In this document: in pieces, positions 1,040-41,400 of the stretch | Layout: every line of letters starts with the position of its first letter | Position numbering within the stretch: the stretch's first letter is position 1 | The notes under the pieces: generated by a model | Databases searched by the model: none | Told to the model about the DNA's origin: nothing | The model's input: the letters and a program-made list of their open reading frames with translations, nothing else | Virus record (IMG/VR): IMGVR_UViG_3300031974_002723 | Span: 1-62,858 of that record | Length of the DNA stretch: 62,858 nt | Direction: 5' to 3' (one strand) | Origin: a virus | Made by a program: the position numbers and the translations under genes

Positions 1040-1071
1040 CAAAGTTACAACGATTGTTTCTTATTTCCAAA
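1040..1071 (-). promoter_or_regulatory. Early promoter (TTTG-20-TAACTTTG)
   Basis: Read on the minus strand, TTTG (1068-1071) is separated by 20 nt from TAACTTTG (1040-1047), matching the Bacteroidota consensus of -33 TTTG and -7 TAnnTTTG. The bases after the -7 box (TCCACG) recur in the promoter at 2066-2097. It drives the gene starting at 1013. Confidence 0.8.
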
Positions 1072-2065: not shown

Positions 2066-2097
2066 CAAAGTTAAGGCAAATGTTCCTATCTACCAAA
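2066..2097 (-). promoter_or_regulatory. Early promoter (TTTG-20-TAACTTTG)
   Basis: Minus-strand TTTG (2094-2097), 20 nt spacer and TAACTTTG (2066-2073), followed by TCCACG exactly as at 1040-1071. Both promoters also share TTTGG at the -33 element. It drives the 233-residue gene at 1324-2025. Confidence 0.82.
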
Positions 2098-5302: not shown

Positions 5303-5336
5303 CAAAGGTAGTGGATAGCTTGGGATAAATCGCAAA
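5303..5336 (-). promoter_or_regulatory. Early promoter (TTTG-22-TACCTTTG), head of the left arm
   Basis: Minus-strand TTTG (5333-5336), 22 nt, then TACCTTTG (5303-5310). It sits at the edge of the strand-switch region and reads into the 207-residue gene at 4638-5261 through a leader of about 40 nt ending CACTCACCTCATGGC. Confidence 0.72.
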
Positions 5337-5730: not shown

Positions 5731-5959
5731 TAGGGTCGGGGTGCGGGAATGCGTTTGGGTGTGTGCGCGCGAGCGTCACGTAGTACGTATAATCCCCCAG
5801 ATCTGTATTACTCCACTCATTTTTAAGCGGGTAATCTGTTCTAACACAACAAATTAGCTTGGATGCGTTAGAATCTTACTCAAAGACTTGCATATGTCAA
5901 AAATCCGCTGTAACTTCGCCTAGCAGCTCAGCGCTATGATGGACAGTCGAGTTGCGATA

Positions 5960-6004
5960 AGCTTCTGAGAAGGTTTTTTGGAGTTGGAGAGGGAGTCAGA
6001 AGCT
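5960..6004. repeat. 9-bp inverted repeat before the first late promoter
   Basis: AGCTTCTGA (5960-5968) and TCAGAAGCT (5996-6004) are perfect inverted copies with a 27-nt G/T-rich centre. The repeat ends 33 bp before the TATATTTG at 6037, so it could be a regulator site or a hairpin. It is not followed by a T tract. Confidence 0.55.
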
Positions 6005-6036
6005 GTTTTGCTGTGCAGGCGCAAGGACTATCTTGT

Positions 6037-6044
6037 TATATTTG
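6037..6044 (+). promoter_or_regulatory. Late promoter TATATTTG, 4 nt before ATG
   Basis: A consensus Bacteroidota -7 box with no TTTG at -33. The ATG at 6049 begins 4 nt after the box, at the expected start of transcription. Confidence 0.68.
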
Positions 6045-6048
6045 CGCT

Positions 6049-6648
6049 ATGAGACCCAAGAAAAGGACTGGCAGGCGGCTTCGTCGCGAAGCGTTGGAGA
6101 TGTTTCCAGCTCTGAAGGCTTTGGGGAGGGTTACGGTAAAGGCTGATCCTGGATTTACGAGGGAGGCTACTGGAATAGGTGACATAGAGTACTTCGGTCC
6201 TGGTCAGAGGGTGGTCCGCTACCCCAGTGGGGCGGAGTTCAAGCACCCAGGTCCAGATAGGAGGCATGCTGTTCTCTTCAACCCAGAGACAAACAATGCT
6301 CAAGCTGTTGCTTTGGATATGCTTCACGGGATGTCAGAGGCTGACCCTAAGTTCAGGGGTATGCTGCAGGAGTTTGGGGAGGCCCTTGGAGAAGATGACG
6401 TGAGGTATTGGTATGAACAGGATCTGAAAGAGGGGTATGCTGGTGATGGGTATGAGCAGTACCGCCAGAACTACATTGACGGGAAGCTTCGTAATCTATT
6501 GTTTGAGGGGAGTGAAGAGGACTTCGCAAGATCACGCTATAACCCAAGAGAAAGACAGGATATGCGAGAGTACAACCCCAGGGCATACCAGGCTTTCGAG
6601 GATATACAGAGATATTTGAAAAGCAATGCTGATCAAGAAAGGAGATAA
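6049..6648 (+). CDS. First late gene, hypothetical protein, 199 aa
   Basis: Starts MRPKKRTGRRLRREALEMF. I prefer this ATG over the in-frame GTG at 6013, which lies upstream of the promoter box. The N-terminus is very basic, and the rest is acidic and aromatic with several Tyr-rich stretches near the C-terminus (EDDVRYWYEQD, GDGYEQYRQNY). No membrane segment or catalytic motif is recognised. It opens the late block and may be a virion or regulatory protein. Confidence 0.78.
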   Translation: MRPKKRTGRRLRREALEMFPALKALGRVTVKADPGFTREATGIGDIEYFGPGQRVVRYPSGAEFKHPGPDRRHAVLFNPETNNAQAVALDMLHGMSEADPKFRGMLQEFGEALGEDDVRYWYEQDLKEGYAGDGYEQYRQNYIDGKLRNLLFEGSEEDFARSRYNPRERQDMREYNPRAYQAFEDIQRYLKSNADQERR

Positions 6649-6754
6649 GTGGATTGTGTACGACTCTAAAGGGCAGAAGCGCTTGGGGGAGCACAGCAGC
6701 AGGAAGAAGGCGCTGGCACAGCTTCGTGCTATAGAAATCAATAAGAAGAAATAA
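6626..6754 (+). CDS. Small basic phage protein, 42 aa
   Basis: Begins MLIKKGDKWIVYDSKGQKRLG and continues with ...KKALAQLRAIEINKKK. It resembles a small protein seen in many environmental phages (a one-domain strand-strand-helix with an AL.QLRAIE motif). It overlaps the end of the 199-residue gene by 23 nt and stops 1 nt before the next ATG. Function unknown. Confidence 0.68.
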   Translation: MLIKKGDKWIVYDSKGQKRLGEHSSRKKALAQLRAIEINKKK

Positions 6755-6755
6755 G

Positions 6756-7238
6756 ATGAGACCGATAAAGAACGGTGGGGACCCGATAGACCCAAAGCGC
6801 CTGAAGAAAGGGTTGGGGTATGTAGAGAGCAGGAACAACCCTGCCGCTATGAACCCGAATAGCTCAGCTACGGGAATGTACCAGATGCTGTACAGCTTGA
6901 TTAAGAACGAGCCAGAGATGAGTGGGGTAAGCAGGGACAGCCTTTCTAGAGCACCGCACCTCCAGGAGATCCTGATGGACAGGAGAATTACAGAAGGTAT
7001 TGGGGGCCCTAGCCTTGAAAGGAATGCTGTTGATCTTGAGAGAGAGTATAAAGAACAGCTTGGAGACAAGTGGGTGTTTAGGCCTGATGAAGTGGCTGCC
7101 CTTACGCACTTCTTGGGGAGGCAGGGAACCAGAGAATACTTTGCTTCTATCAGGGACAATACAGAGTTCAAGGTTCCAGGGGTAAATAAGACTCCAGAAG
7201 ACTATTTGAGGGACTATAACAGAGGTTTGAATAATTAA
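6756..7238 (+). CDS. Lytic transglycosylase-like protein, 160 aa
   Basis: Likely cleaves the glycan strands of peptidoglycan. The N-terminal third carries the signature of SLT-type (lysozyme-fold) enzymes: YVESRNNPAA with the candidate catalytic Glu at residue 24, followed by NSSATGMYQM (about 35-44). There is no signal peptide, so it could act in lysis with a holin or travel in the virion to help DNA entry. An M15 endopeptidase lies about 1 kb downstream, giving complementary wall cuts. The catalytic Glu is read from the motif, not tested. Confidence 0.72.
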   Translation: MRPIKNGGDPIDPKRLKKGLGYVESRNNPAAMNPNSSATGMYQMLYSLIKNEPEMSGVSRDSLSRAPHLQEILMDRRITEGIGGPSLERNAVDLEREYKEQLGDKWVFRPDEVAALTHFLGRQGTREYFASIRDNTEFKVPGVNKTPEDYLRDYNRGLNN

Positions 7239-7246
7239 TATATTTG
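7239..7246 (+). promoter_or_regulatory. Late promoter TATATTTG, 4 nt before ATG
   Basis: TATATTTG overlaps the stop of the transglycosylase gene. The ATG at 7251 follows after CGTC (4 nt). No TTTG at the -33 position. Confidence 0.68.
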
Positions 7247-7250
7247 CGTC

Positions 7251-7373
7251 ATGGTGAAAGCAAAGAAGTCCTACAAGCGCGGTGGTAAAGTCGTTGCTCA
7301 GGGAGCAGATAAAAAAGACGTCCGTCGCGAGAAGAAGATGGACAGAATGATGCTTAAAAAGAAAAAGGCATGA
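7251..7373 (+). CDS. Small basic protein with GGKV motif, 40 aa
   Basis: Reads MVKAKKSYKRGGKVVAQGAD and ends in a Lys-rich tail (MMLKKKKA). The RGGKV motif recurs in other late proteins here (7370, 36159 and 50466 genes). Its stop overlaps the next ATG as ATGA, so coupling is likely. Such small basic late proteins may accompany DNA packaging, but this is speculative. Confidence 0.62.
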   Translation: MVKAKKSYKRGGKVVAQGADKKDVRREKKMDRMMLKKKKA

Positions 7374-8077
7374 TGAACTCTGGTACCATGTCCGATCGCC
7401 TGAGAGAGGCGATGGAAGAGAAAGGAAGGGAGGAGAACGGAACCTTGATCGGTCAGTTCGCCTCCACCGTTCGTAGGGAGCAATCCGACAGCGGTGAGAT
7501 GAGAGAGTTTGTCTGGGTCAACAAGGGCGAGGAGCTCGATTACGACGCCCCTGACGAGCAGTGGGAGAACACTCCTGGATCTTTTAAGGTGTATGGCAAC
7601 TGGAACGAGTACGCTCAGGGTCAAGATGAAGAAGGGAATATGTTCCTTCCTGACGAAGACTTCCCGTACATCAAGAATGCTGAGGGGCAGTATGTCCTTG
7701 ACGAGTCTACTTTTGAAGGTCGCTCCAGAAGCGATGAGATGGGAAGGCAGGAGCTCGGAGGTCAGGGTGCCTCACCGATGGAGGACCTGATGGAGAAGCT
7801 CAGCCAGATGCGCGGACAAGGTGGTGCCCCAGCTCCTGGAATGATGATGGGGGGCGGCAAGATCTACGCTGGTGGCGGTAAAATCGCAAGACAATCCAGA
7901 AAAGAAGACAGGTACGCAGCTCGTAACAGGATGCTCCCTGATCCCAGGACCAGCGAACAGAAAGCAGAAGCTTACAGAAAGCGCAGGAACCAGAGGATGC
8001 TGAAAGGCCTTATGGGGTTGGTTACTGGCGCTGTCGTAGGCGGTGGTGAGTACAACGTCAGACAACGCAAGTCGTGA
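7370..8077 (+). CDS. Late hypothetical protein with GGGKI repeats, 235 aa
   Basis: Starts MMNSGTMSDRLREAMEEKG at the ATGATG that overlaps the previous stop. The first 130 residues are acidic. About residues 155-175 hold Gly/Met-rich segments with two GGGKI copies, followed by a basic C-terminus with a hydrophobic patch (MLKGLMGLVTGAVVGGG) that might touch a membrane. No family recognised. The acidic-to-basic layout and GGK motif fit a virion or packaged protein. Confidence 0.72.
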   Translation: MMNSGTMSDRLREAMEEKGREENGTLIGQFASTVRREQSDSGEMREFVWVNKGEELDYDAPDEQWENTPGSFKVYGNWNEYAQGQDEEGNMFLPDEDFPYIKNAEGQYVLDESTFEGRSRSDEMGRQELGGQGASPMEDLMEKLSQMRGQGGAPAPGMMMGGGKIYAGGGKIARQSRKEDRYAARNRMLPDPRTSEQKAEAYRKRRNQRMLKGLMGLVTGAVVGGGEYNVRQRKS

Positions 8078-8799: not shown

Positions 8800-9200
8800 A
8801 AGCGCTGGACGAGGAGCCTAGCCCTTTGCGTAAGCGCGTACCTAACTCTATAGTTGTACTTGGTCTCTTCTCTGAAGAGGTGATCATCGAGCGATTGTGA
8901 CGGCGTTAGCCTTTCGAAGTGCTTGTACAGGAGTTCCTCTGACTGCAAGGGGTATATGATCCTGTTCGCCATGTTGCTGCGGTTATACTGATACTGTTCA
9001 GCGGCATGGTCTATGGTAAAGAATTCTAGGTCGTAAGCCCACAGGAGGAACTCCAAGTGCTTCCAGTCAATATCATGGTGCTCGCAGAAGTCCTTCCTAA
9101 CAGAATGTAGATTCTTGAGGTAATTGTTGTTGATGTACTTCTCTTTCAGTTTAGAGAAGTCCCTGAACATGCGCTTCTTGGACACTTTTGACTTAGGCAT
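8784..9200 (-). CDS. Winged-helix (MarR-like) DNA-binding protein, 138 aa
   Basis: The only minus-strand gene inside the 46-kb late block. After a basic N-terminus (MPKSKVSKKRMF) the middle reads like a winged helix-turn-helix: LEFLLWAYDLEFFTIDHAA, then a recognition-helix-like NRSNMANRIIYPLQ, then a wing with YRVRYALTQRARLLVQRFY. It faces away from the 9220 gene, whose promoter overlaps its upstream region, and converges on the endolysin. A regulator of late or lysis genes is plausible. I saw no promoter of its own. Confidence 0.68.
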   Translation of the reverse strand: MPKSKVSKKRMFRDFSKLKEKYINNNYLKNLHSVRKDFCEHHDIDWKHLEFLLWAYDLEFFTIDHAAEQYQYNRSNMANRIIYPLQSEELLYKHFERLTPSQSLDDHLFREETKYNYRVRYALTQRARLLVQRFYQSL

Positions 9201-9215
9201 GATTACTTATCTTTG
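9187..9215 (+). promoter_or_regulatory. Late promoter TTTG-17-TATCTTTG, 4 nt before ATG
   Basis: TATCTTTG (9208-9215) precedes the ATG at 9220 by 4 nt. Here a TTTG (9187-9190) is present 17 nt upstream, so this late promoter may keep a -33 element. It overlaps the start region of the divergent winged-helix gene. Confidence 0.62.
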
Positions 9216-9219
9216 ATCT

Positions 9220-9525
9220 ATGAATTCAAAGGACAAGGAGTTTATCGCTGAAGCTTACTCCCTTATCGTTCAAATCGAGGAACTCATCAGAAGTTACGGA
9301 TACGAAGATAAGGTGATGTCGGCCATGATGCTCGGTGTCATCGATATTTCCCCAGACGACGACGTCCAAGAGGGGGACGAAGTACAGTTGAAGAGTGTGT
9401 TCAGCTACAACCTGGACAGTAAGCTTGAGCTGGAGATGGTGAAGGAAATCATGTCTCAGCAGTTCGATGATCCTGACGACGATATAGACAAACTCCTTGG
9501 AGACCTTGGTATATCACTGAACTGA
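9220..9525 (+). CDS. Acidic late hypothetical protein, 101 aa
   Basis: Starts MNSKDKEFIAEAYSLIVQIE. Helical at both ends and strongly acidic, especially the C-terminal segment (FDDPDDDIDKLLGDLG). Its stop overlaps the next ATG (TGATG). Unrecognised. Confidence 0.72.
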   Translation: MNSKDKEFIAEAYSLIVQIEELIRSYGYEDKVMSAMMLGVIDISPDDDVQEGDEVQLKSVFSYNLDSKLELEMVKEIMSQQFDDPDDDIDKLLGDLGISLN

Positions 9526-9765: not shown

Positions 9766-10341
9766 ATGAAGACGCTCGACAAGTTTATCGTACAAATCGA
9801 AAAAGAACTACAAGACACCATAACCACAGACTCTGGACTAGAGCTCTACATAGACACCAAATACAATGAGTTTGAACACCGAACTACAGAAGGCGAAATC
9901 CTGGCTTATCCGCTCAAGTATGACACTGGTGCGGAAGCTGGAGATACTCTTTACTTCCATCATCACGTGGTTATCAATGGCGGTTCGCCACTGGTCAAGG
10001 AAGACAATCATTACATTGTCCAGTATGATGACGTCCATGCAGCTGCGAATCAAGCAATTGCGTACAAAAATCAGGACGGCATACACCCAATCAAGGGTTG
10101 GTGTCTGCTTGAGCCTGTTGAGGAAGATGACCCTGGACATTCTGGACTCGTTGAAGTGGTCACTCTCAAAGAGAAAGAAGTAACCCAAGGTGTGGTATCC
10201 TTTGACACATCAGAGCTTGAAGAGCTCGGAGTATCCCATGGGGACGTGGTTGGCTTCAAAAAGAACAGAGACTACAGGATTAAAATTGATGGCAAGGAAT
10301 ACTACAGGGTCGCGGTCACGGAGCTCCTCTACAAGCTTTGA
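9766..10341 (+). CDS. Tandem GroES-like co-chaperonin, 191 aa
   Basis: Likely assists a GroEL-type chaperonin in folding phage proteins, as T4 gp31 does. Each half shows the GroES (cpn10) pattern. Half 1 (about 1-100) has an EGEILAYP-type strand, then GAEAGDTLYFHHH and HYIVQYDDVHA. Half 2 (about 110-191) has TQGVVSF, GVSHGDVVGFKKN and YYRVAVTELLY. A normal co-chaperonin is about 95 residues, so this looks like an internal duplication or fusion. The mobile loop cannot be pinned down by eye. No GroEL gene is present. Confidence 0.62.
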   Translation: MKTLDKFIVQIEKELQDTITTDSGLELYIDTKYNEFEHRTTEGEILAYPLKYDTGAEAGDTLYFHHHVVINGGSPLVKEDNHYIVQYDDVHAAANQAIAYKNQDGIHPIKGWCLLEPVEEDDPGHSGLVEVVTLKEKEVTQGVVSFDTSELEELGVSHGDVVGFKKNRDYRIKIDGKEYYRVAVTELLYKL

Positions 10342-10612
10342 TACCCTTAAAGCCGCAGAAAAGCTGATGCAGGCTATGGCCATTGCCATTGACAATATGA
10401 TCGAAGAGGTGAAGAAGCCTGTCGATCAGGACATCAATGGTAGCGCCAGGAAAGCCGAACTTCAGTCAGTAAAACAAACCGCCATAGATTGCAAGGAGCT
10501 GCTTCGTGAGAGGCAATCCTTGGAGCAGATGGTTAAAGAACTTAGAGAAAATGGAGAAGTCCAAGAAGACAAAGACTACTCAGGCGGATTCGCAGAGAAG
10601 TTCAGCAAGTGA
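10289..10612 (+). CDS. Late helical hypothetical protein, about 107 aa
   Basis: From residue 15 on, the protein is one charged helical stretch (FDTLKAAEKLMQAMAIAIDN ... LLRERQSLEQMVKELREN), likely a coiled coil. The start is uncertain: the ATG at 10289 gives a 53-nt overlap with the co-chaperonin gene and a low-complexity RSRSSSTS beginning, while the ATG at 10367 gives 81 aa. Similar 'chaperone-next' helical proteins could be partners, but this is inference. Confidence 0.55.
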   Translation: MARNTTGSRSRSSSTSFDTLKAAEKLMQAMAIAIDNMIEEVKKPVDQDINGSARKAELQSVKQTAIDCKELLRERQSLEQMVKELRENGEVQEDKDYSGGFAEKFSK

Positions 10613-10742
10613 TCATACCTTGAGGACGGGGGATTTTGATTGGCAGCGTCATGAAACCATGCTGAATAAGAGAATGAATATTATCGGCAGCAATGGAAAT
10701 GACGGGTATCACTACTGGGAGGACAGTTGGAACGAAGAGTAA
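10551..10742 (+). CDS. Small late hypothetical protein, about 63 aa
   Basis: The reading frame runs MEKSKKTKTTQADSQRSS and ends in an aromatic acidic tail (GYHYWEDSWNEE) that looks selected. The start is unsure because the first third overlaps the preceding gene in another frame; a TTG at about 10620 is an alternative. It overlaps the start of the secreted-protein gene. Confidence 0.42.
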   Translation: MEKSKKTKTTQADSQRSSASDHTLRTGDFDWQRHETMLNKRMNIIGSNGNDGYHYWEDSWNEE

Positions 10743-11988
10743 AGGAGTTCTACTTGCTCTTTATATTGGTCTTTCTCTTGGCTCTGCGGCTCAGTGTGAC
10801 CTTGAGCTTGTAGGTGTAGACCTTATCGAAGGGACGGTAACGGTATCGTTCAACAACACTGAGAACTGTGGTGGCACAGGCGGACCCGACGGAATTTCTG
10901 AGATCCAGTTCGGGTTTCAGGCTTTAGACGAGAACTGCAACGCCATGAATGTCGGGTGGGACTTCCCGTCTGGCGTTTCTATTCCTGACGACTCGAATCA
11001 TCCTGGATGGGTGTACTCTGCTACTACTACGGAGACACCTAGCAACTGGACAAACCTGTATGGCGATGATATTGATCCCCCGTATTATACTGGTGAGGTT
11101 ATAGACTTCCCTATCTACAATGTGTACCAATCTTCATCTGGAGGTTTGTGGTACCAGATGGAGGATATCCTTGGATATTGGATTGACGAGGGGTATAGCA
11201 TACAAGTTGTTATTTGGCAGATCAGCTATGGCCCCACCATGTATGCTGAAGACGGTGGGTGGGCTGAGGTAGGACCCAACGGAGACGGGAGCAGCTGGGG
11301 GAGCGGGGTCTATGACGACGAGAACTTCCTTGACAACTGGGTTGTGATTGGTCCTTGTGGGGAGTGTGTCCCAGAGGTTGTAACGGATACGGTTTACGTA
11401 GACCTCCCTGCAGATACAGTAACCGTCTTTGAATCAGATACGATCATTCAGTATGATACCACATACACTTACATAACGGACACGTTGTACCTCGTCGATG
11501 TGGACACTTCATATATCACTTTAATCGACACCGTCTATCTTACTGATTATCAAACTGATACCGTCATTGTCGTTGACATAGACACTTCATATATTAGTTT
11601 AACTGACACCATATACGTTACTGAGTATCAAATAGATACAACGAGTGTATATGAATATGACATGGTTGAAGTTGACTGCAGTACAGGTCAGCCATGTGTC
11701 AGTCCGTTCTCTGATTGCTCTATATACATACCGAACTCTTTTACCCCTAACAACGATGGGGTGAACGATGTATGGGGAGCCGAGACGGACTCTTTTTGTT
11801 GGGCGAGCTGGAGAATGAAGGTGTTCTCAAGGACTGGCGAACTGGTATGGGAGAGTTACGATCCAGATGATATTTGGCTTGGTGGAGACGAGTACTATGT
11901 CCCTAACGACATGTATATTTACAGAGTGGAATGTGAGGGATACGGGGAGTCATACATCATAAACGGTCACGTGACCATTATCAGATAA
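10699..11988 (+). CDS. Secreted protein with T9SS type B sorting domain (CHU_C-like), 429 aa
   Basis: The N-terminus has a basic stretch, a hydrophobic core and a signal-peptidase-like site (VLLALYIGLSLGSAAQ/C, about 17-32). The last ~87 residues match the gliding-motility-associated CHU_C domain used as a type IX secretion signal: YIPNSFTPNNDGVNDVWG, then MKVFSRTGELVWES, then NGHVTIIR at the very end. Between them lie a Trp/Gly-rich domain with paired Cys (about 35-230) and Thr/Asp repeats (about 237-333). A host secretion system would export it, and a virus-encoded cargo is unusual. Roles could be surface display, receptor masking or superinfection exclusion. It sits in the late block, not in a cargo island. 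Confidence 0.8.
   Translation: MTGITTGRTVGTKSKGVLLALYIGLSLGSAAQCDLELVGVDLIEGTVTVSFNNTENCGGTGGPDGISEIQFGFQALDENCNAMNVGWDFPSGVSIPDDSNHPGWVYSATTTETPSNWTNLYGDDIDPPYYTGEVIDFPIYNVYQSSSGGLWYQMEDILGYWIDEGYSIQVVIWQISYGPTMYAEDGGWAEVGPNGDGSSWGSGVYDDENFLDNWVVIGPCGECVPEVVTDTVYVDLPADTVTVFESDTIIQYDTTYTYITDTLYLVDVDTSYITLIDTVYLTDYQTDTVIVVDIDTSYISLTDTIYVTEYQIDTTSVYEYDMVEVDCSTGQPCVSPFSDCSIYIPNSFTPNNDGVNDVWGAETDSFCWASWRMKVFSRTGELVWESYDPDDIWLGGDEYYVPNDMYIYRVECEGYGESYIINGHVTIIR
11494..11649 (+). repeat. Two tandem 78-bp repeats inside the secreted-protein gene
   Basis: Copies at 11494-11571 and 11572-11649 encode 26-residue units beginning VD[VI]DTSYI[ST]L and containing DT[VI]Y[LV]T[DE]YQ. The units differ mostly by conservative changes, and less perfect units precede them. 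Such Thr/Asp beta-stalk repeats are typical of Bacteroidota surface proteins ahead of a sorting domain. Confidence 0.75.
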
Positions 11989-12203
11989 TGAAAAGAGACT
12001 ATGACAAAGAGTACAGGAAGTACGGTAAGAGTGAGAAAGCTAAGAAGTACAGAGCTGCCCTCAATAAGTATAACCGTAAGAAAGGGACGTATGGTAACGG
12101 TGACGGGCTGGACGCCGCTCACGAGAGTGGGGTGATCAGAAGGTTTGTCAAAGCCTCCGTAAACAGAGCAAACAACAGGCCCAAGAAAAGGGCGAGTAAA
12201 TAA
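11988..12203 (+). CDS. Small conserved phage protein, 71 aa
   Basis: Starts MKRDYDKEYRKYGKSEKAKK at an ATG overlapping the previous stop. The pattern KYRAALNKYNRKKGTYGNGD, followed by LDAAHESG, is familiar from many environmental phages and may relate to small HNH-type folds, but the catalytic set is not evident. Very basic. Function unknown. Confidence 0.7.
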   Translation: MKRDYDKEYRKYGKSEKAKKYRAALNKYNRKKGTYGNGDGLDAAHESGVIRRFVKASVNRANNRPKKRASK

Positions 12204-12247
12204 ATTTTCGACGAGACGGCCCCCTACGCAAATGGGGTTGATCAAAC

Positions 12248-12321
12248 TGGGGCGTAGTTCAGTTGGTTAGAGCGTCTGTCTTATACACAGAAGGTCGAGG
12301 GTTCGAACCCCTCCGCCCCAA
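12248..12321 (+). tRNA. tRNA-Ile (anticodon TAT, reads AUA)
   Basis: Clean cloverleaf: acceptor TGGGGCG/CGCCCCA, D arm GTTC/GAGC, anticodon stem TCTGT/ACAGA with loop CTTATAC, so anticodon TAT. The T arm is GAGGG-TTCGAAC-CCCTC. CCA is not encoded. AUA-reading tRNAs with a UAU anticodon are uncommon in bacteria, which usually use a lysidine-modified CAU. Confidence 0.92.
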
Positions 12322-12333
12322 CAATTCAATACA

Positions 12334-12465
12334 ATGGCAAAACAAAACAGCACTTACAGCGAAAAGAAGAAGGTCAGCAGGCCTGGCGTGCATGCCAAAA
12401 CCAAATCGTCGAAAAACAAGACTTCCCAAAACTACAGGAAGGCTTACAGGGGACAGGGGAGGTAA
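12334..12465 (+). CDS. Small basic conserved phage protein, 43 aa
   Basis: Reads MAKQNSTYSEKKKVSRPGVH and ends NYRKAYRGQGR. This Lys/Arg/Ser-rich pattern ending in YRGQGR is a recurrent small protein just before terminase genes in Bacteroidota phages (from memory). It lies between the two tRNA genes. Confidence 0.66.
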   Translation: MAKQNSTYSEKKKVSRPGVHAKTKSSKNKTSQNYRKAYRGQGR

Positions 12466-12480
12466 TTTTCCCTTACCTTT

Positions 12481-12554
12481 GCTCCTGTAGCTCAGCTGGA
12501 TAGAGCATCTGCCTTCTAAGCAGACGGTCCCAGGTTCGAATCCTGGCAGGGGTA
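12481..12554 (+). tRNA. tRNA-Arg (anticodon TCT, reads AGA/AGG)
   Basis: Cloverleaf with acceptor GCTCCTG/CAGGGGT (two G-U pairs), D arm GCTC/GAGC, anticodon stem TCTGC/GCAGA with loop CTTCTAA (anticodon TCT), and T arm CCAGG-TTCGAAT-CCTGG. No encoded CCA. Together with tRNA-Arg(CCT) at 20-91 it covers both AGR codons favoured in the late genes. Confidence 0.94.
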
Positions 12555-12568
12555 CAATTGAATTCATC

Positions 12569-12751
12569 ATGAGTAAGTACAAGTGCGAGTGCGGCAAAAC
12601 CGCAGAACATACTGGAAGCGTATCCATCAAGGTGATCAACGGAGAAGTTCGTCACGATGTGAAGTGTGAATGCGGGAAGTACATGGAACTGGCCGAGAAG
12701 AAGGTCGGCGTCCCCTCATTCAAAAGCAATCGGTATGGACAGGTCCGATGA
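12569..12751 (+). CDS. Small zinc-ribbon-like protein, 60 aa
   Basis: Starts MSKYKCECGKTAEHTG and has a second CECG in VKCECGKYMEL, so two C-x-C pairs about 27 residues apart could bind one zinc. It precedes the large terminase and overlaps its start by 17 nt. A small terminase subunit is expected near here, but this lacks an obvious HTH, so I do not call it that. Confidence 0.66.
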   Translation: MSKYKCECGKTAEHTGSVSIKVINGEVRHDVKCECGKYMELAEKKVGVPSFKSNRYGQVR

Positions 12752-27532: not shown

Positions 27533-28927
27533 ATGTCTGCAATTGCTGCAAGTAAAGCAGGTGGTGTGACTCTGAGCGGTCATGCTGCCTCTCTGAAAAC
27601 CGCTCCCGACAAGTACATCTCGTTGGGAGATCTCCTTGATCCGACCAAGCCCGACAACAGGGACCTTTTGGTGAACACCTACGGTGACCAGGGCATCACT
27701 GGATTCCTCCAGCTGACTGGCGCTGTCCGTAACGGTGGTACCGCCGATGAGGTTCAGTGGTGGGAAGAAGGTCGTCTCCACAAGACGGCTTCCATCACCC
27801 TCGCTGCTGGTTCGGCTACTGGTCAAGGAACACTGACCACTTCTGACACGCTCCGTGCTAACGACGTCCTCCTGACTCAAGCTGGCGACCGCCTGGTTGT
27901 GATCGACCCGACGTCCGCAAGCACTGACAACGTCAAGACCCTGGACGGAACCGCTGTGAACGCCATCACTGTCGCTGAAGACGTTGCCATCATCGGTAAC
28001 ATCTACGCTCAGGGTACGTCTCAGCCGAGCTCCTTCTACCAGACGGAGGTCAACAAGATGATCAACCCGTACTTCATCACCAAGGAAACCTACCACGTGA
28101 CTGGTTCCCAAGCCACGAACATTGGCTGGATCAACGTTGGTAACGGTGACTACAGGTGGTACGTGAAGGGCGAGATGGACACTCGTAAGCGTTTCATGAA
28201 CCAGCGTGAGATGATGATGCTGTTGGGTCAGAACCCCGTCAACCCGATCGGTGGTACTCTCGACTCCACTGCTGACCTCACCCTGACGGACGGCACGACG
28301 AACCTCGGCAGCATTGCTGGTTCTGAGGGCTACTTCCAAGCTGTTGAGCGCAGAGGTATCACGACGACGGGCACGTTTGGTGACGGTGCTGGATTCGCTG
28401 ACATTGACGAGATCATCTTCGAGCTCGACAAGCAAGGCGCTCCTGCTGAGTACGCCATGTACGTTGACACGGCTACGTCCCTCGCTATCGACGACATGCT
28501 TGCTGCTGGTATCGCTACCCAGACCACTGCTGGTCTGCCTGGTCAGTTCGGAGCCTTCCAGAACAGTGCCGACATGGCCGTTCAGCTTGGCTTCAAGAGC
28601 TTCTCCAGAGGTAGCTACACCTTCCACAAGCACGGTTGGAAGCTCCTGAGCGACCCGACCCTCCTCGGTGCGTTCACGAACAAGCCGTACAAAGGTGCTA
28701 TGGTTCCGATGACGCAGGTTGCTGACGCCAAGACTGGTGTTAAGTCCCCTGCTCTGGAGATGAACTACAAGGAAGTGAACGGCTACGGTCGTGAGCTTGA
28801 GCACTGGGTGGAAGGCGGTGGCGTCCTCGGATTCGCTACCAACGACCAGGACGTGGCTAAGTTCCACTACCGTTCTGAGGCCAACCTCGTGACCCGCGCT
28901 GCTAACCAGCACGTGGTGCTCACCTGA
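27533..28927 (+). CDS. Major capsid protein (crAss-like), 464 aa
   Basis: Forms the head shell (HK97 fold expected). Starts MSAIAASKAGGVTLSGHAAS. The segment GDYRWYVKGEMDTRKRFMNQ, followed by REMMMLLGQNPV, resembles crAss-like capsid proteins as I know them. It has a Gly/Thr-rich insertion around residues 65-130 and no obvious prohead protease site. Codons look optimised (CTC, CGT, AAC), unlike the AGR-rich neighbours. A hairpin follows the stop. Confidence 0.88.
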   Translation: MSAIAASKAGGVTLSGHAASLKTAPDKYISLGDLLDPTKPDNRDLLVNTYGDQGITGFLQLTGAVRNGGTADEVQWWEEGRLHKTASITLAAGSATGQGTLTTSDTLRANDVLLTQAGDRLVVIDPTSASTDNVKTLDGTAVNAITVAEDVAIIGNIYAQGTSQPSSFYQTEVNKMINPYFITKETYHVTGSQATNIGWINVGNGDYRWYVKGEMDTRKRFMNQREMMMLLGQNPVNPIGGTLDSTADLTLTDGTTNLGSIAGSEGYFQAVERRGITTTGTFGDGAGFADIDEIIFELDKQGAPAEYAMYVDTATSLAIDDMLAAGIATQTTAGLPGQFGAFQNSADMAVQLGFKSFSRGSYTFHKHGWKLLSDPTLLGAFTNKPYKGAMVPMTQVADAKTGVKSPALEMNYKEVNGYGRELEHWVEGGGVLGFATNDQDVAKFHYRSEANLVTRAANQHVVLT

Positions 28928-31014: not shown

Positions 31015-31832
31015 TGGCTAGGAACTACGTAACACTCGAACAGGTCGTAAATGACTTCATACTCACCCTAGACACGGATGACTATGCAAGCAGCGCTTCT
31101 GATTTCGCGATCAGAAGTTTTGCTCTTAGGGGGGTTCGTGAGATGGGGTTTGATCTTCTCAAGGTCATCAGGTCTTTGAAGCTGTCCGTTGACGCTAACA
31201 ATACTTCCACTCTCCCTGACGATTATGTGGATTGGTCTAAGATCGGTCTTGTGGGTAGTGATGGGTTGGTCTACGTACTTGGCGAGAACAAGAACATCAA
31301 TTATTCTCAGAAGTACTCTACTTCCAATGGGAATACTTACGATACGGACGGTGATGGACTTCTGGATAGGGAGGACGACAAGACGGCTACTTCTGGTGCT
31401 GGCAATGTCAACGATCTCGGAGACGGCATGGAGTCCTATATCTTCAGGAACTACATCTACGAAAACGATCACGGTCGTCTCTACGGAATTGGTGGGGGTC
31501 AATATCACGGCGAGTTCAGGGTAAACCTGGATCAGAACAGAATCGAACTCAAGACCAATACAAACGTGTCTGAGATCGTTATTGAATACGTGGCAGACGA
31601 AGGAAGGGCAACCAACCCTCAGGTTCACGTTTATGCAGAGGAAGCCTTGAGGGCTTATATCTACTACAAGATCATTGAGCGGAAGTCTTCTGTTCCCGCA
31701 AGCGAGAAGGCCAGGGCCAGACAGGAGTACTACAACGAGCGCAGGAAAGCCAATGCTCGCATGAAGTCCTTTACGAAGGAGGAGGCCCTCAAGACGATTC
31801 GTAAGAACTACAAGCAAGCACCTAAGGGCTAA
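31014..31832 (+). CDS. Head-tail connector protein candidate, 272 aa
   Basis: Starts MARNYVTLEQVVNDFILTLD. It contains an EF-hand-like DTDGDGLLDRED near residue 110, suggesting a calcium-stabilised loop. The C-terminus is basic and helical (KSFTKEEALKTIRKNYKQ). Position after the adaptor and before the large tail protein fits a second connector ring. Confidence 0.68.
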   Translation: MARNYVTLEQVVNDFILTLDTDDYASSASDFAIRSFALRGVREMGFDLLKVIRSLKLSVDANNTSTLPDDYVDWSKIGLVGSDGLVYVLGENKNINYSQKYSTSNGNTYDTDGDGLLDREDDKTATSGAGNVNDLGDGMESYIFRNYIYENDHGRLYGIGGGQYHGEFRVNLDQNRIELKTNTNVSEIVIEYVADEGRATNPQVHVYAEEALRAYIYYKIIERKSSVPASEKARARQEYYNERRKANARMKSFTKEEALKTIRKNYKQAPKG

Positions 31833-34800
31833 TGATCGATAAGACTTTCCCGAACAGACTACAGACTGATACCGATCAGAAGTATGTGCGCCCAGAGGTG
31901 GGGGAGATGGTGGACGCTCAAAACGTCACTATCTCTGAAGGGGGTACGAACTCTGGTGGAGTCATTAAGAACGTTAGGGGTACGACAGCAGCCACTGCAA
32001 CGGCAGAGAATAGGATTGTAGACGGAGACGCCTTTACAGTTATCGGTAGCGTCTCAGATCCTCAGCGTGGATACATATACTGGTTTGTTTCCGACGATAG
32101 CGGGAACACAGAGGACGCCATTTACAGGCAGGATGTAAGCGACAACACTTACGAGATTGTCATTAAGAGCACTGCTCTGAACTTCAGGTCTACTGATTTC
32201 GTCAAGGCTGACGTTGTAAATGCAGCGTTCCAGCAGGACGATGTTGTGCAAACAGCACTGTTCTTTACGGACAACTACAACCCACCTAGAAAAATCAACG
32301 TCGATAGAGCCATCAATGGTGACTACGACGGCATTACACTGAACAGTCAGGTTCACAACCTTGGTGACGCCATCTCCACGGTCAAAGCGGCTGAAACCAG
32401 GAACCCGACCTTCTACTTCTCTACAGACGAAGACATCCAGGGGAATAAGTTCGTCAATGCTGCATATCAGTTTGCTACGCAATATGTGTATCGGGATGGC
32501 GAGGTTTCTGCTATCTCTCCATACTCCCCATTGGCCGTCTCCGCTGCAGCGGCACTAAGGAATCAAGAGGGCGATGACTCTGCGTCTCTCGCCCCGTACA
32601 CTCAAAATGTATGTGAGGTAACCCTGAATGTAAACCCTGTTTTGCCAGATATGGCTGAGGTTAGGCTTTTGGCTAGAGAGGGGAATAATGGGGCTTTCTT
32701 TATCGTTGATCAGTTTGATCCGTCTCAGGACATTTCAAGAAACGTCTACGGCACGAACAAAGACGTCTTCAATGCCGCTACGCAGATATATAGGTTCTAT
32801 AATGACAGGAACGGAGCCCTGATATCTCAGGTTGAGGTCAACAAGCTGTACGATAACGTTCCTTTCCTTGCTGCTGGACAAACAGTGGCAAGCAGCAGGC
32901 TTATGTACTCCAACTACACGGAGGGTAGAGCCAACATAGACATTTCAAACCCAGCTACGTTTACTGTAAACTACTCTGAAGCGTCTGTAGCTGGAAGGGA
33001 AGTGATGAATACTGCTGATCACTCTGCGGACACGCTGACTCAGCAGGCACTTACAGATATAGACGTACTCATAGACCTTCTTGCTGCAAGCGGTCCTATG
33101 GACGGGCTCTTGACTTCGGGGACTGCAGTTTCTACGACCCCAGTCCCGATCGGCACTCTACTCAACATCGGGTTTGATTTCGCTCCTACGCTGACCTTGT
33201 CTAGGTCTACGGCTACCGACCTGTGCTCTGTAGATGTGACTCAAATCGACGACTCTACTGGAGTTCAAACCAATGGGACCCTGAACTTCGATGAGCTTGT
33301 GCTTGACACAATTGCTGCTGAATCGACTAGCCATTCGGTTCTCATCAACATTACTACTGGAACCGCCACTACTGTATCTGGTTTGGCTTCGCTGATAATA
33401 GATGAGCTCGAAGAAATCCAGGACGTACCCGTTGTTTACGACCTTTCTTCTACTCAGGCAAGTAGCGTAGTCGGGGGTGTTTCGTCACTTTCGACCATTT
33501 CTGGAAACGTCACTGTATACTACAATTTCGAGGAGTTCGACCAGACCGAGGGGAACTCGACGGTGTCTATAAAACCAGTTGTTAGTAGAATAGACTTTAG
33601 TGAGTGTTTCTATGATACTGGAGGGGACTCCACGATGTTTGGTAGCACCGAGGATGAAGTCAACGTACTTATTGGGACCCCCACTCAGGCTCAGTTTTCG
33701 TTCACCAGCGTGGGTGCCACCTACCTGACTGAAAAGAGGACAGAGATGTCCATAGTGAACGTCAATGGATCGTTCAAGGCTGGATGCTCTCACTCCTTCG
33801 GGATTGTATTCTACGACAGATTCAATAGGTCTGGTAACGTCCAGGAGCTTGGTAGCGTATATGTAGACGCGCTCCCAGAGAGGTCGAGTGGATATGGACC
33901 AGCGTCTATAACCATTGACTTTGCTAACGCCTTTGCCAGTGCTGTACCAGACTGGGCTGTTAGGTACCAGATCGTGTACCCTGGAAGGTCTTCTATCGGG
34001 GATTTCACACAGTACACAGTGGGGGGTGGATACAGGGCCCTCAAAAAAGACACTGACGGAGACTACACTGGAACGGCTGCAGATAGCAATTCGAAAAGGA
34101 TATACGTATCCTTAAAGAATCTTGACCTCTACCAAGAGGAGAAAGGCGCGACCAGGGAATACTCTTTCACTGAGGGCGATAAGCTCAGGGTCATAAAGGG
34201 AAGAGACGCAACAGACTCAGCAGACGAGTACTACACTGCAAGCGATTCAACAATCATTGAATTTGATGTCGTTGGCGTAGAAATTCTGAGTGGTACGATC
34301 GGCGACAACCCAATAGAAGCTACAGCAATAGGGTCTGAACACAAAGGAACCTTTATTGTCTTGGAGTGCCCCGCAATCAATTCTGGGGCCAACGGGACGG
34401 ACGGGAATCCGCTGACATACACTGGCTTCGATTGGGACGATATGGCCACCAACAACTACTGGGATAGAAACATAGTTGTTGAAATCTACTCTCCGAAGTC
34501 AGAACAAGAGAATAAGGTCTATTATGAGATTGGTCATGGCGGTAGAGTTGGAGCCAGAAAAGACCCTCTTGTAAACGAGCTTGGAGACGAGATAACCGTT
34601 ACAAACGGCGATATTTTTGTCAGGCCAATATCTTGTAAATCAGTTCATTACTCGGCTGGATGGAAATCTGACGTGCCTGAAGACTGGCCTTACGAAACGC
34701 TACCTCTTGAGAGCTCTTCTTGGACTGATGCAAAGTCTGTAACCGACTGGCACAGAGGCAGGGCTCACGTCATCTTTGAGGAGGCCGCAGAAGTGAGGAG

Positions 34801-36145
34801 ACGCAACGGAATCACATACAGCGACGCATACGCTGAGGACGTCGAGGTATTTTCACTATCATCATTCAACGCTAGTCTCGGAAACTTCTTTAGCCTTGAT
34901 GCTGCCAATGGAGCATGCAACTACATCGGCGGCATGAGAGACGGATATCTGGCGGCCCTGCAAGAGAACAGTGTGGCCAGGGTCCCTCTCGGAAAGGACA
35001 TTATCACATCTCCAAACCAGAGCGGGATTGTGTCATTGAGCACAAGAGTACTTGGTGAGCCATTCTACTATATTGGTGACTTCGGATGTGGCGACAATCC
35101 TGAGTCTGTTCTTATCCGCGATGGAGGGTTGTTCTTTGTCGATACGTCTAGAAAAAAGGTCGTTAGGCTTACAGGTGAGGGGTTGTCTCCGATTTCTGAG
35201 AACGGTATAGACTCGCTCTTCAAAGACCAGTACGATCTGTTTAACGCTCAGGGCGGAACTAGGATCGTTAGCGGGTATGACCCAGAGGATAATCAGTACT
35301 ATGTGACCCTTCGGGCAGTAGGCACGTATGGCGGTATTACTCTCGGATACAGCGTTGGAAACAACACTTGGCAGAGCAGGTATACGTTCTATCCAGACAT
35401 GTATGCCGACCAGAATAGCACGATGTACAGCGCTTTCTACGTGGATCCAGTTGGAGACGACAACGCCATCATCTTCCACTCCCACGACAACGAAACAGAC
35501 TACAACACGTTCTATGGGACTGCAGCGACGTCTATCGTCAAGGTCGTAAGCAATTACAATCCTAGTATGGTCAAGGTGTTCAATGCAGTATCTCTTGAAA
35601 CAGACAGCGATACGTGGGGCGTTACGAGGATTGAGTCCAGCGAAGGGGCATACTCTGCGAGCACGAACCTCACTGAGATCGAGGGGTCTTTGTATGGGAA
35701 TATCGCGATGGACGAGTCGGGTGATTCTACGAGACACATCATACCGATTGGTGCAGTAGCTACTGGGTATACCCCGAATATTGCAACCGTTCCGTTTGAC
35801 AATAGGGTCAATGTACTTTCTCTTCCTGTGGGGGCTACTGTTATGGAGGTCGAGCTTGACGGAACGCTGGTCAATATCGGGACTCCCATCGGTGGCAACC
35901 CAACCGTAAGGACTCTTGGCAGCGTAAGTGGGATCAGGGAGATCACGCTCAATGCCGCTACTTCTGTCGACCTTGATGGAAAGAACCTGGTTCTTGTTAC
36001 AGACCAGTCTCAAAACGGAGACCCAATACGTGGCCATTGGGCCGAAATAACACTAACAAATGCTCAGACTACTCAGTTCGAGTTGTTCTGCGTAAACACT
36101 CACTTTGTGGATTCCAAGCAAAACCACGCATTAGGACAGCAATAA
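31832..36145 (+). CDS. Large tail (stabilisation/hub) protein, 1437 aa
   Basis: Starts MIDKTFPNRLQTDTDQKYVR, matching the start of the large 'stabilisation' tail protein of crAss-like phages from memory. Texture is long beta-rich Ser/Thr/Asp with several Gly/Asn loops. The last ~80 residues form an isolated beta domain. It probably forms the tail hub. It overlaps the previous gene by 1 nt and is followed by a 4-nt-spaced promoter. Confidence 0.78.
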   Translation: MIDKTFPNRLQTDTDQKYVRPEVGEMVDAQNVTISEGGTNSGGVIKNVRGTTAATATAENRIVDGDAFTVIGSVSDPQRGYIYWFVSDDSGNTEDAIYRQDVSDNTYEIVIKSTALNFRSTDFVKADVVNAAFQQDDVVQTALFFTDNYNPPRKINVDRAINGDYDGITLNSQVHNLGDAISTVKAAETRNPTFYFSTDEDIQGNKFVNAAYQFATQYVYRDGEVSAISPYSPLAVSAAAALRNQEGDDSASLAPYTQNVCEVTLNVNPVLPDMAEVRLLAREGNNGAFFIVDQFDPSQDISRNVYGTNKDVFNAATQIYRFYNDRNGALISQVEVNKLYDNVPFLAAGQTVASSRLMYSNYTEGRANIDISNPATFTVNYSEASVAGREVMNTADHSADTLTQQALTDIDVLIDLLAASGPMDGLLTSGTAVSTTPVPIGTLLNIGFDFAPTLTLSRSTATDLCSVDVTQIDDSTGVQTNGTLNFDELVLDTIAAESTSHSVLINITTGTATTVSGLASLIIDELEEIQDVPVVYDLSSTQASSVVGGVSSLSTISGNVTVYYNFEEFDQTEGNSTVSIKPVVSRIDFSECFYDTGGDSTMFGSTEDEVNVLIGTPTQAQFSFTSVGATYLTEKRTEMSIVNVNGSFKAGCSHSFGIVFYDRFNRSGNVQELGSVYVDALPERSSGYGPASITIDFANAFASAVPDWAVRYQIVYPGRSSIGDFTQYTVGGGYRALKKDTDGDYTGTAADSNSKRIYVSLKNLDLYQEEKGATREYSFTEGDKLRVIKGRDATDSADEYYTASDSTIIEFDVVGVEILSGTIGDNPIEATAIGSEHKGTFIVLECPAINSGANGTDGNPLTYTGFDWDDMATNNYWDRNIVVEIYSPKSEQENKVYYEIGHGGRVGARKDPLVNELGDEITVTNGDIFVRPISCKSVHYSAGWKSDVPEDWPYETLPLESSSWTDAKSVTDWHRGRAHVIFEEAAEVRRRNGITYSDAYAEDVEVFSLSSFNASLGNFFSLDAANGACNYIGGMRDGYLAALQENSVARVPLGKDIITSPNQSGIVSLSTRVLGEPFYYIGDFGCGDNPESVLIRDGGLFFVDTSRKKVVRLTGEGLSPISENGIDSLFKDQYDLFNAQGGTRIVSGYDPEDNQYYVTLRAVGTYGGITLGYSVGNNTWQSRYTFYPDMYADQNSTMYSAFYVDPVGDDNAIIFHSHDNETDYNTFYGTAATSIVKVVSNYNPSMVKVFNAVSLETDSDTWGVTRIESSEGAYSASTNLTEIEGSLYGNIAMDESGDSTRHIIPIGAVATGYTPNIATVPFDNRVNVLSLPVGATVMEVELDGTLVNIGTPIGGNPTVRTLGSVSGIREITLNAATSVDLDGKNLVLVTDQSQNGDPIRGHWAEITLTNAQTTQFELFCVNTHFVDSKQNHALGQQ

Positions 36146-38410: not shown

Positions 38411-41400
38411 ATGGAAGAAGATTACAATCAGGTAATAGAAAGACTTAGGTCTCGCGGAAAGACTGACGACTTCATTGTAAATACCCTGGTTTATGACCCT
38501 AGGTATGGGGTTGATCGAGCCAGAGCGAAAGTTTTGGTTGGAGTTTTCGATAAAAAAAAAGACTCGCAAGAAATCACTGGCATTTCGGCTTCACAGCCTT
38601 CGGGTATCGCTTTGGACTCTTCTTTGGAAGAGGGCCAGAAAGTTGAGGCTGCATATGCCAATCCTAGCATAGACGAAACCAAGCTCGACCCTGCGCTCAG
38701 CCAGTGGCGTAGCTACCACCTCGCGACGGGCATGACTCCTGGAGACAGGGATGTCAACATGTACGACGAGGAAGACATGAGGATGTCATACGTTACTGAC
38801 GCTGTAGACTGGTCGATAAGTAACGGTAAGTTTGAAGAAGGGATTACCAGAGAAGATATCCTTGGAAACAACAAGGACAAGAAGTTCGACCCTGAGAAAG
38901 CCACTATTGCTAAGGAGGCGTTTGACGATTTCTGGTCTAACGTTCCTGATGAGGTAAAAGAATATCAGGCAGACGAAGAACAGATTAAGCAGAGAGTTGC
39001 GGCGTCTAGATCCCTCTCTATTATCAAGGAGTACTCAAAGAGGATGGAGCAAGACTTTAAGTCTGCTCACAACGAGCTTATGGCCTCTAACAAGGAGTAC
39101 AAGGATAAGGTAGAGCACTTTCAGAAAAGGGCAGCGAAAGGAGAGATCTCTGAGATAGACGCTACCAAGGAGATAAACAGGTACTTCAACATATACTCCT
39201 CGGATTTCTTCAAGGACAGGCTCGATGCATATAGAGACGAGATCATAAGCTCTCTACCTGAGGAGATGGCCAACGACAATGACTTCCTTGAGGATCTGTC
39301 TGAGGACATTTACGACAGGACCAACGGTCAGATGAAGCTGAACCTGGACAGGGATGGGGTATACAACGAAGATACTTGGGGTATCACGTCCATGTTCTAC
39401 GGCATGGCCGCAAATACGATGGATCTGTTGGCTGGACCTTTGTCATACGTGGGTAGTTCAAACGCTCCGTTCTTTGGGTACGATAGTATGGAGGACATGG
39501 GCCTTGATATCTACGGAACATTTAAAGAAGCGAGCAACAAGCTCAGAGGAGAGCAGAGAGAATACTCTGACCTGTTCGAAGATGATTGGAGGGGGTGGAA
39601 TGTGTTCAACAAGCTGGGACATCTTGGATTGGAACTTGTTGATTCTGGCGGAGAGATGGTCCCGTACCTTTTTGCAGGTAGCCTTCCTGGCGCATTGTTC
39701 TTGACGGGAACAATGAACACGTACATTGACAGCAAGTACCAAGACAGAGACAAAATAGAGAGGGGATTTGCCCCTGTTTTTGGATACAATGAAGTAGGCG
39801 GAGAGGCTGCAAGGCTAATAATGTCTCTTTCTGTTGGTGCTGTACAAGAGTACTCTAAAGGCATATTGCAAAGGGTTGGCGGTAGATTTTTAGGCAAAGG
39901 AACTGCCGCTGCATCTGATAGGTACATCTCTAAACTTCTCGGCGGAACTGCTGGGGAAGTGACCAAGGGACGTGCTTTCTCGGCGTACCTTCTTGGTCAA
40001 GGAGTTGACGCTCTCAAAGAAGGTGGACAGGAAGTCATTGAGAACGCGATACAGAGAGCGGCTGAGGTGGGGCTTGGAAACAGCGATCTCACCATGTCTG
40101 AGTTCTTGGCTGAATCACAGATGTCCTTTGTTGAGGGTGTTAAAGGAACCGTAGGTATTGCTGGTGGCGGTGCTGTACTGAATAGAAAAGGTGCCCTTCA
40201 GTCTGGTGAGAGGATTCTCGGTATTGACTCAAGCATTCTGACTGGACCTGCGGCAGCTACAAATTCCATCGCAGACCCTAGTTCAGTAGACGCTGAGGAA
40301 GGATCTGACGCTCCAGTCCTGTCGAACATTGACAGAGAAACTTACGGGAAGACCCCTGAGGAGATTAGGAAACACAAGCTGAAAAACGAGGAGAGATACA
40401 GAGTCATCAAGCTTCGTCACCCGCAGTCTTTTGAGAGTATTCAGAAGATGGACGAAAGGCTGATGGTTCTTGCCCATACAGCAGAAGCGATATACGCAAA
40501 GGCAGAAGACAGAAATGTACTCGACCCGAAAGAAGTGGAGAGACTGGAGGCTGCTCAAAGGGAGTTCAAGTCTCTCATTGAGGCACGCCACAGGCTGTTT
40601 ACTTCATTTGATAATGAGCCTACTGCCCTTACTGAAGCTGAAGCCATTGCCGTTGAGAGGGCTCATGTCGCAAAAGCGATGAATGAGATGGACCTCGACA
40701 TCAGGCAGACAAGGGAGGAGATGCAGAAGATGAAGGAAGAGGAAGGAACCCTCTTCTATGATGCCGATGCATACGCAGAAGCAGAAAACAGACTCGAAAG
40801 TCTGAAGAGACGTCAGGCCACTGCAAGGAAACTCATCGGGGAACTGGAGGTCGCCCACAAAGCGGACGCTGAGGCCAGAGCCCAAAGCAACATCAAGACA
40901 AAAGATGGTAGGGACCCTATAGCTGAGAGGACTTCTGACGCTGTTCTTTCTGCTCAGAACTCCCTTCTTGATTTCATGGGGATCAAGAATCAAGAGTTCG
41001 ACCCTGAAGCTCCTGCTCAAACCTCTTCTACGTGGTCGGCTGAAACCCAATCTAAAAATCACTACGAAGACGAAGCGAGCAAGGGTAGTACTTACACTTT
41101 GGACGGGGTCAACCAAGCTGGAAAGCCCAAGGCAAGCGTCAGCATATTTAATGAGAGGAGCGAGGTTGTCGATGGTGAGATGACCCAAGAGGAGATGACT
41201 CAGAAGCTCCAAGAGTTCTACGAGAATAACAAGGATATTCTGGAGGGCAACGAAGACATCTTGGCGATCGGCACCTTCTACGACGCTGAAAGCGGAAAGA
41301 CCTATATCGACATCTCTTCTGTTCTGGATAAGGACATTGCAGCTAGACTCGGAAAAGAGTACAATCAGATCTCAGTGTGGGATTTGGAGCTGATGAAAGA

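Follow-up and report, generated by a model that had tools for sequence, protein, structure and literature searches.

The stretch of viral DNA considered here (IMG/VR record IMGVR_UViG_3300031974_002723, positions 1 to 62,858; hereafter the window, meaning all 62,858 nucleotides) carries, upstream of the terminase gene TerL, an open reading frame (ORF) that, as far as its sequence can tell, has the complete architecture of a type IX secretion system (T9SS) type B cargo protein. From the amino terminus, it consists of a predicted signal peptide, a head domain, a repetitive stalk and a type B C-terminal sorting domain (CTD). The gene order is co-chaperonin, a small gene ending at 10612, cargo, a gene of 71 amino acids (aa), two tRNAs, TerL and portal. 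A preliminary description had placed the cargo between a co-chaperonin-like gene and terminase; this location is borne out, with small genes and tRNAs in between that the description did not mention. All results presented below are sequence-based and the viral loci used for comparison originate from a metagenomic library.

Architecture of the cargo gene and its surroundings

The type B sorting domain that had been claimed for this protein is recovered by both relevant profiles above their curated cut-offs. PF13585 (CHU_C) matches residues 345-416 with an E-value of 2.6e-11 and 43.9 bits (cut-off 27), and TIGR04131 matches residues 345-431, up to the end of the profile, with an E-value of 2.8e-9 and 37 bits (cut-off 35). 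The domain forms the extreme C-terminus of the cargo (residue 431 of 431), and the cargo gene holds the only CHU_C match in the window record. Across 16 viral CTDs, the invariant positions are P-N-x-F-x-P-x-x-D-G-x-N-D, W, R-x-G, W-x-G and Y; secretion of the adhesin SprB requires five CTD motifs, A to E. An AlphaFold 2 (AF2) model of the whole cargo reached a pLDDT of 50, with the CTD blocks at about 65-81, and Foldseek ranked PorZ (5m11) second with a non-significant E-value of 7e-3.

The other claimed elements are equally present. The ORF starts at ATG 10693 or at the in-frame ATG 10699, stops at 11986-11988 and opens with a hydrophobic segment followed by A-A/Q-C (the slash marks the predicted cleavage site). 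Position -1 is A, S or G and position +1 is Q in 44 of 44 non-redundant full-length relatives, which were collected with 'QC' at the head start as a requirement. Glutamine after the cleavage site, the Q-rule, is a Bacteroidetes feature (PMC5837995). The cysteine that follows could evoke a lipoprotein; this reading was rejected because Gln occupies position -1 of the Cys, whereas a lipobox needs A, G or S. The Thr/Asp-rich stalk is visible in the sequence as DTxY-type repeats, and the distance from head to CTD varies from about 71 to 271 aa among relatives. Purifying selection acts on both the head and the CTD, with a median dN/dS of 0.064 for the former and 0.077 for the latter.

Complete copies of the gene are found in many independent viral contigs, in agreement with the claim that a phage gene carries the full T9SS type B architecture. 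A first viral scan retrieved 30 loci at 47-100% identity and a scan with the head profile retrieved 63. Relatives share one layout, in which the signal peptide is followed by Gln, the head, a stalk that differs in length and the CTD. A scan for the CTD by a single short motif returned 187 viral stretches encoding a relative, and 49 of the 79 CTD proteins detected in newly fetched loci bear the head of the window type. The coordinates of the features are collected in the table.

Table. Features of the cargo gene and its surroundings in the window
Feature	Position	Strand	Basis
Bacteroidetes-type promoter motif TTTG-N-TAnnTTTG	9187..9215	+	Motif scan; 5 bases before ATG 9220
GroES-like co-chaperonin, upstream neighbour	9766..10341	+	phrog_13932, E 1.9e-44
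Variable slot, from small gene ending 10612 to TerL	10613..12665	+	Comparison with TerL relatives
T9SS type B cargo gene, 431 aa, stop TAA	10693..11988	+	ORF, profile matches, complete relatives in many viral loci
Predicted Sec/SPI signal peptide, aa 1-33, cleavage before Gln34 (Q-rule)	10693..10791	+	Sequence and 44 relatives
Head domain, aa 34-225, virus-restricted, beta-rich, VIWQI core	10792..11367	+	63 viral loci, AF2
Thr/Asp/Tyr-rich repetitive stalk, variable length	11368..11724	+	Alignment, lengths, pLDDT about 25
Type B T9SS C-terminal sorting domain (CHU_C / TIGR04131), aa 345-431	11725..11985	+	Profile matches
71-aa basic protein	11988..12203	+	After cargo in window; before cargo in L012, L021, L023, L030
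tRNA-Ile(tat)	12248..12322	+	tRNA scan
tRNA-Arg(tct)	12481..12555	+	tRNA scan

The window is not bacterial DNA; it comes from a podovirus of Bacteroidota with affinities to Elemovirus and crAss-like phages. Its TerL, starting at 12666, matches phrog_6681 (E 1e-212) and is followed by a portal gene (phrog_6547). TerL is 41-48% identical to that of Elemovirus phages of Flavobacterium and of MW202828, and 34-37% identical to that of Cellulophaga phages such as phi18:3 and phi38:1. A 1437-aa protein (31832-36145) possesses a crAss muzzle C-terminal domain. No integrase was noticed among the window proteins scanned, which were part of the total. Elsewhere the window encodes a 3222-aa ORF (38411-48079) and, on the minus strand, a class II-like phage ribonucleotide reductase (52564-54453). 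The promoter motif listed in the table occurs four times, at 1040-1071(-), 2066-2097(-), 5303-5336(-) and 9187-9215(+), for 0.79 expected by shuffling; the last copy is a possible operon promoter for the gene cluster starting at 9220. Scans for sigma-70 promoters and terminators around the cargo gene gave about the shuffled expectation.

Distribution and exchange of the head domain

The cargo family is present in at least five phage contexts, A to E. In context A, that of the window, the gene lies in the interval that runs from the small gene behind the co-chaperonin to TerL. The order varies: the cargo precedes the 71-aa gene and tRNA-Ile in the window and follows both in L012, L021, L023 and L030. 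Context B, in phages whose TerL is about 48-50% identical, places the cargo about 1-4 kb past the beginning of a gene resembling window 27533-28927, a virion structural gene that most likely encodes the major capsid protein. In context C (L025-L027/L140), the cargo adjoins divergent TerL and portal genes on the opposite strand. Context D is the 109-kb contig L117, which also encodes QueC and GTP cyclohydrolase, and in context E (L137) the neighbour is a giant virion protein.

Proximity to TerL in one lineage and a position after the major capsid region in another might suggest a virion or tail-associated protein that shares a T9SS-like beta domain by coincidence. We consider this very improbable: a Sec signal peptide and a CTD would withdraw the protein from cytoplasmic virion assembly, the gene is optional, its position shifts among close relatives and it has no match in PHROGs.

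Several of these loci call for separate comment. Directly upstream of the head gene, L117 encodes at 5869-7944 a PAPP-A-like M43 metallopeptidase with a Q-rule signal peptide (LYGQ); its C-terminus resembles a type A T9SS tail by eye and stays below every Pfam cut-off. Given this signal peptide and type A-like tail, the L117 phage may export two proteins. Genes for tRNAs flank the cargo on one or both sides in several relatives. In L002, tRNA-Ile(tat) at 2604-2678 overlaps the apparent cargo start ATG (2616), so that the tRNA gene would encode the n-region of the signal peptide; L003 is arranged alike. ARAGORN also reported a tRNA-Trp within the head coding sequence of L016 and L017 (+ strand, about +94..+188 from the head start), probably a false call. 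Two genomes of uncultured phages, LR745206 (634 kb) and LR756502 (642 kb), match the CTD only, and huge phages therefore carry T9SS sorting domains too.

In bacteria, the two domains differ in their distribution. Relatives of the CTD are common in Flavobacteriales, while profile searches of about 830 Bacteroidota genomes uncovered one copy of the head, and this copy is truncated. It lies at the contig end of a bacterial metagenome-assembled genome (L245), 54 bases past a tRNA-Ser, in an in-frame fusion with a PAF-acetylhydrolase, and may be a transfer remnant or an assembly artefact. A scan of GTDB species confirmed no host copies, within the limits of the two short patterns it used. Two more distant head groups, A5 and A6, borne by other phage cargoes, are each absent from 299 Flavobacteriales genomes; profile comparison ties them to the window head (97.1%, E 4.7e-11 and 97.7%, E 2.1e-12, respectively), and all three share a core resembling 'VIWQI'. 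A host origin of the head was rejected in view of the single truncated copy, and by these searches the head is a virus family.

The same data bear on whether the cargo could be a gene of bacterial origin, brought in by chimerism or contamination of the contig, as the Flavobacteriales-like CTD and the truncated head on a bacterial contig might be taken to indicate. Many contigs hold the locus in phage synteny, a second contig carries it at 100% identity and the head is otherwise absent from the Bacteroidota genomes searched; we rejected this explanation, which retains hardly any credibility.

Comparison between loci indicates that the head is exchanged separately from the sorting domain. Heads are 96% identical and CTDs 41% in L154/L155, 94% and 40% in L023/L005, and 87% and 37% in L030/L127, which belong to different phage lineages. 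DNA identity rises at the junction of signal peptide and head, ranges from about 70 to 98% over the head and drops within the stalk; outside, it is about 40%. L004 and L016 match in the head and the downstream flank but differ in the CTD. L257 carries an unrelated short head in an otherwise preserved setting: the slot, the signal peptide, the stalk and the CTD (71% identical to that of the window) are retained. Among 15 dereplicated loci, the identity matrices of TerL and CTD are correlated (r 0.46, 0 of 2000 permutations) whereas those of TerL and head are not (r 0.11, p 0.17). From these alignments, we conclude that the head recombines as a cassette among phages, and that sorting domains track TerL relatedness and heads do not. 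Ten CTD proteins with other heads showed no Pfam domain above cut-off besides CHU_C.

Proposed surface display and its alternatives

The fate of such a protein can be approached from what is established for type B cargo. Type B CTDs require a shuttle of the PorP/SprF family and the CTD sets the destination (PMC12618676); the exported proteins are anchored by PorP-like proteins (PMC9143113). A profile search detected no PorP_SprF gene in the window or in 10 related phage records, while the control returned 7-15 per genome in four Flavobacteriales genomes. The phage protein would therefore be, if secreted, an orphan cargo in need of a host shuttle. The lack of an adjacent shuttle gene does not exclude membership in type B, since orphan type B cargoes served by a common shuttle occur in Flavobacterium johnsoniae (PMC12618676).

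We propose, with a probability of about 0.55, that this orphan type B cargo serves the phage as a surface-display device, most likely one that blocks further adsorption. The cargo would be made in the cytoplasm late in infection and exported by Sec, its signal peptide being cut off before Gln34. The type B CTD would then take it through the host SprA translocon and pass it to a host shuttle of the PorP/SprF family, and the stalk would hold the phage-specific head outside the infected cell. There, the head would most likely stop adsorption, either because it masks a surface receptor or because it competes for the shuttle with SprB-like adhesins. In this scheme, the CTD would act as an address label matched to host or lineage and the head as the functional module traded among phages. 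Export, surface location, timing and exclusion function are all inferred, with unequal strength. Placement on the surface of the infected cell would follow, by analogy, from type B CTD biology, and display of the head there seems highly probable. Superinfection exclusion or surface interference by the head is a more tentative suggestion, somewhat short of an even chance. Parts of the gliding machinery have been proposed as Flavobacterium phage receptors (PMC7345892), for which reason a phage protein displayed at that site could block adsorption.

Competition for the shuttle could also be the whole story. The CTD would then be a decoy saturating the host PorP/SprF shuttle or the translocon and lowering the display of SprB-like adhesins that act as phage receptors or gliding parts, and the head would be incidental. 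The shuttle-less phage records fit this explanation, as do the requirement of overproduced type B CTD fusions for an additional shuttle (PMC12618676) and the proposed receptor role of gliding components. However, strong purifying selection acts on the head, which is also the part exchanged, and it is therefore unlikely to be incidental; we regard a pure decoy as improbable.

The genes that replace the cargo provide a further indication. In intact TerL relatives, the slot contains group 1 and group 2 glycosyltransferases, an NDP-sugar epimerase, a GDSL acylhydrolase, UDP-galactopyranose mutase or a DegT aminotransferase; glycosyltransferases and sugar-nucleotide enzymes are frequent in relatives devoid of the cargo. 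The slot is empty in some relatives and holds small lipoprotein-like ORFs in others. The surface-sugar enzymes point to cell-surface modification as the putative theme of the slot, and receptor masking or a block of superinfection, both suggested in the preliminary description, would be consistent with such slot contents.

The head itself has structural relatives in BFVD, A0A7S9STS8 (E 1.2e-6) and A0A516LPX6 (E 3.4e-18), and its AF2 model, built from 37 sequences, reaches a pLDDT of 71 and a pTM of 0.74 with a weak stretch at residues 147-175; unlike the poor full-length model, it can be used. The head is rich in invariant residues (Trp, Tyr, Gly, Asn and Asp). Following the same export route, the head could instead be an adhesin that sticks the infected cell to particles, algal polysaccharide or neighbouring cells, which would set the progeny free amid new hosts or provide the cell with nutrients. 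The stalk-plus-head layout and the invariant residues suit a binding domain, and exchange between unrelated phages is expected of a generally useful binder. On the other hand, no carbohydrate-binding family was found in Pfam and no fold match in the PDB, and a slot shared with surface-sugar enzymes fits a surface change better than adhesion. An adhesin thus appears unlikely, if less so than a decoy. The possibility that the head is an enzyme or a binding domain of a known type was discarded, with no match in Pfam, NCBIfam or PHROGs, and profile searches found no solved relatives.

Several points weigh against a display device that controls adsorption. The head has no PDB fold match at E<=0.001, and none of its motifs hints at a receptor or a ligand. 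The cargo is accessory: it was seen in 3 of 80 TerL-retrieved loci (L035, L038 as a fragment, and L041); many of those 80 are truncated near the slot. The surface-sugar enzymes of the slot could modify virions instead of cells, and metagenome assembly could have produced some of the head-CTD combinations as chimeras. Finally, the pairing of type B CTDs with shuttles can be specific (PMC12618676), and borrowing of a host shuttle could therefore fail in some hosts.

If the proposed display of the cargo is correct, phages take over secretion and gliding machinery specific to Bacteroidota and use it to place their own proteins on the infected cell. Since the CTD and not the head correlates with phage lineage, CTDs are predicted to encode host compatibility, a prediction that bears on how type B CTDs choose a shuttle. 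The gene family is common enough for study. A broader proposal, which we put forward with less than even confidence, is that Bacteroidota phages have a common surface-display platform: a virus-specific head superfamily, ordinarily foreign to host cargo, mounted on interchangeable type B T9SS address domains, exploiting host PorP/SprF, traded as a cassette between unrelated phages and controlling adsorption to the infected cell.

Comparison with known systems

The preliminary description knew of no system of this kind in phages. This statement does not stand: Cryophage (Bellas et al. 2020, PMC7468147) and the crAss-BACON contigs (de Jonge et al. 2019, PMC6949934) precede it, and phage T9SS cargo as such is therefore already known. 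In the open-licence PMC literature, a search on phage T9SS and superinfection exclusion yielded the Cryophage paper alone, and no earlier description of the present type B family, of its virus-restricted head or of the cassette exchange was found. One relative of the head, A0A7S9STS8 from Virus NIOZ-UU157, is annotated as 'Gliding motility-associated C-terminal domain-containing protein'.

On the host side, the closest counterparts are SprB and the type B adhesins of F. johnsoniae (PMC12618676, PMC9143113), with which the window cargo shares a signal peptide, a type B CTD and predicted surface display through SprA and PorP/SprF. It resembles the orphan cargoes of this species mentioned above and differs in being encoded by a phage, with no adjacent shuttle gene and with a head that was not seen in host cargo. 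Proteins of Porphyromonas gingivalis phages (PMC10367356) also carry Q-rule signal peptides and were proposed to alter the host surface; unlike here, T9SS goes unmentioned in that work.

Among phage systems, the crAss-BACON contigs similarly encode T9SS-tagged proteins upstream of the head section. In the passages of that report dealing with them, the mention is a passing one, the heads are BACON or unspecified, and family, exchange or shuttle analyses do not figure. Cryophage offers another parallel, with phage-encoded T9SS cargo that is accessory and variable between variants. Its cargo, known from one phage, carries type A sorting domains on an endoglucanase, a GH39 and a PA14 protein, whereas the window cargo has a type B CTD only and no enzyme or PA14 domain in Pfam. 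The window family further differs from Cryophage by its virus-restricted head, its occurrence in at least five phage contexts and the cassette exchange between head and CTD. A family of type B, shuttle-borrowing and head-swapping phage cargo thus appears to be new.
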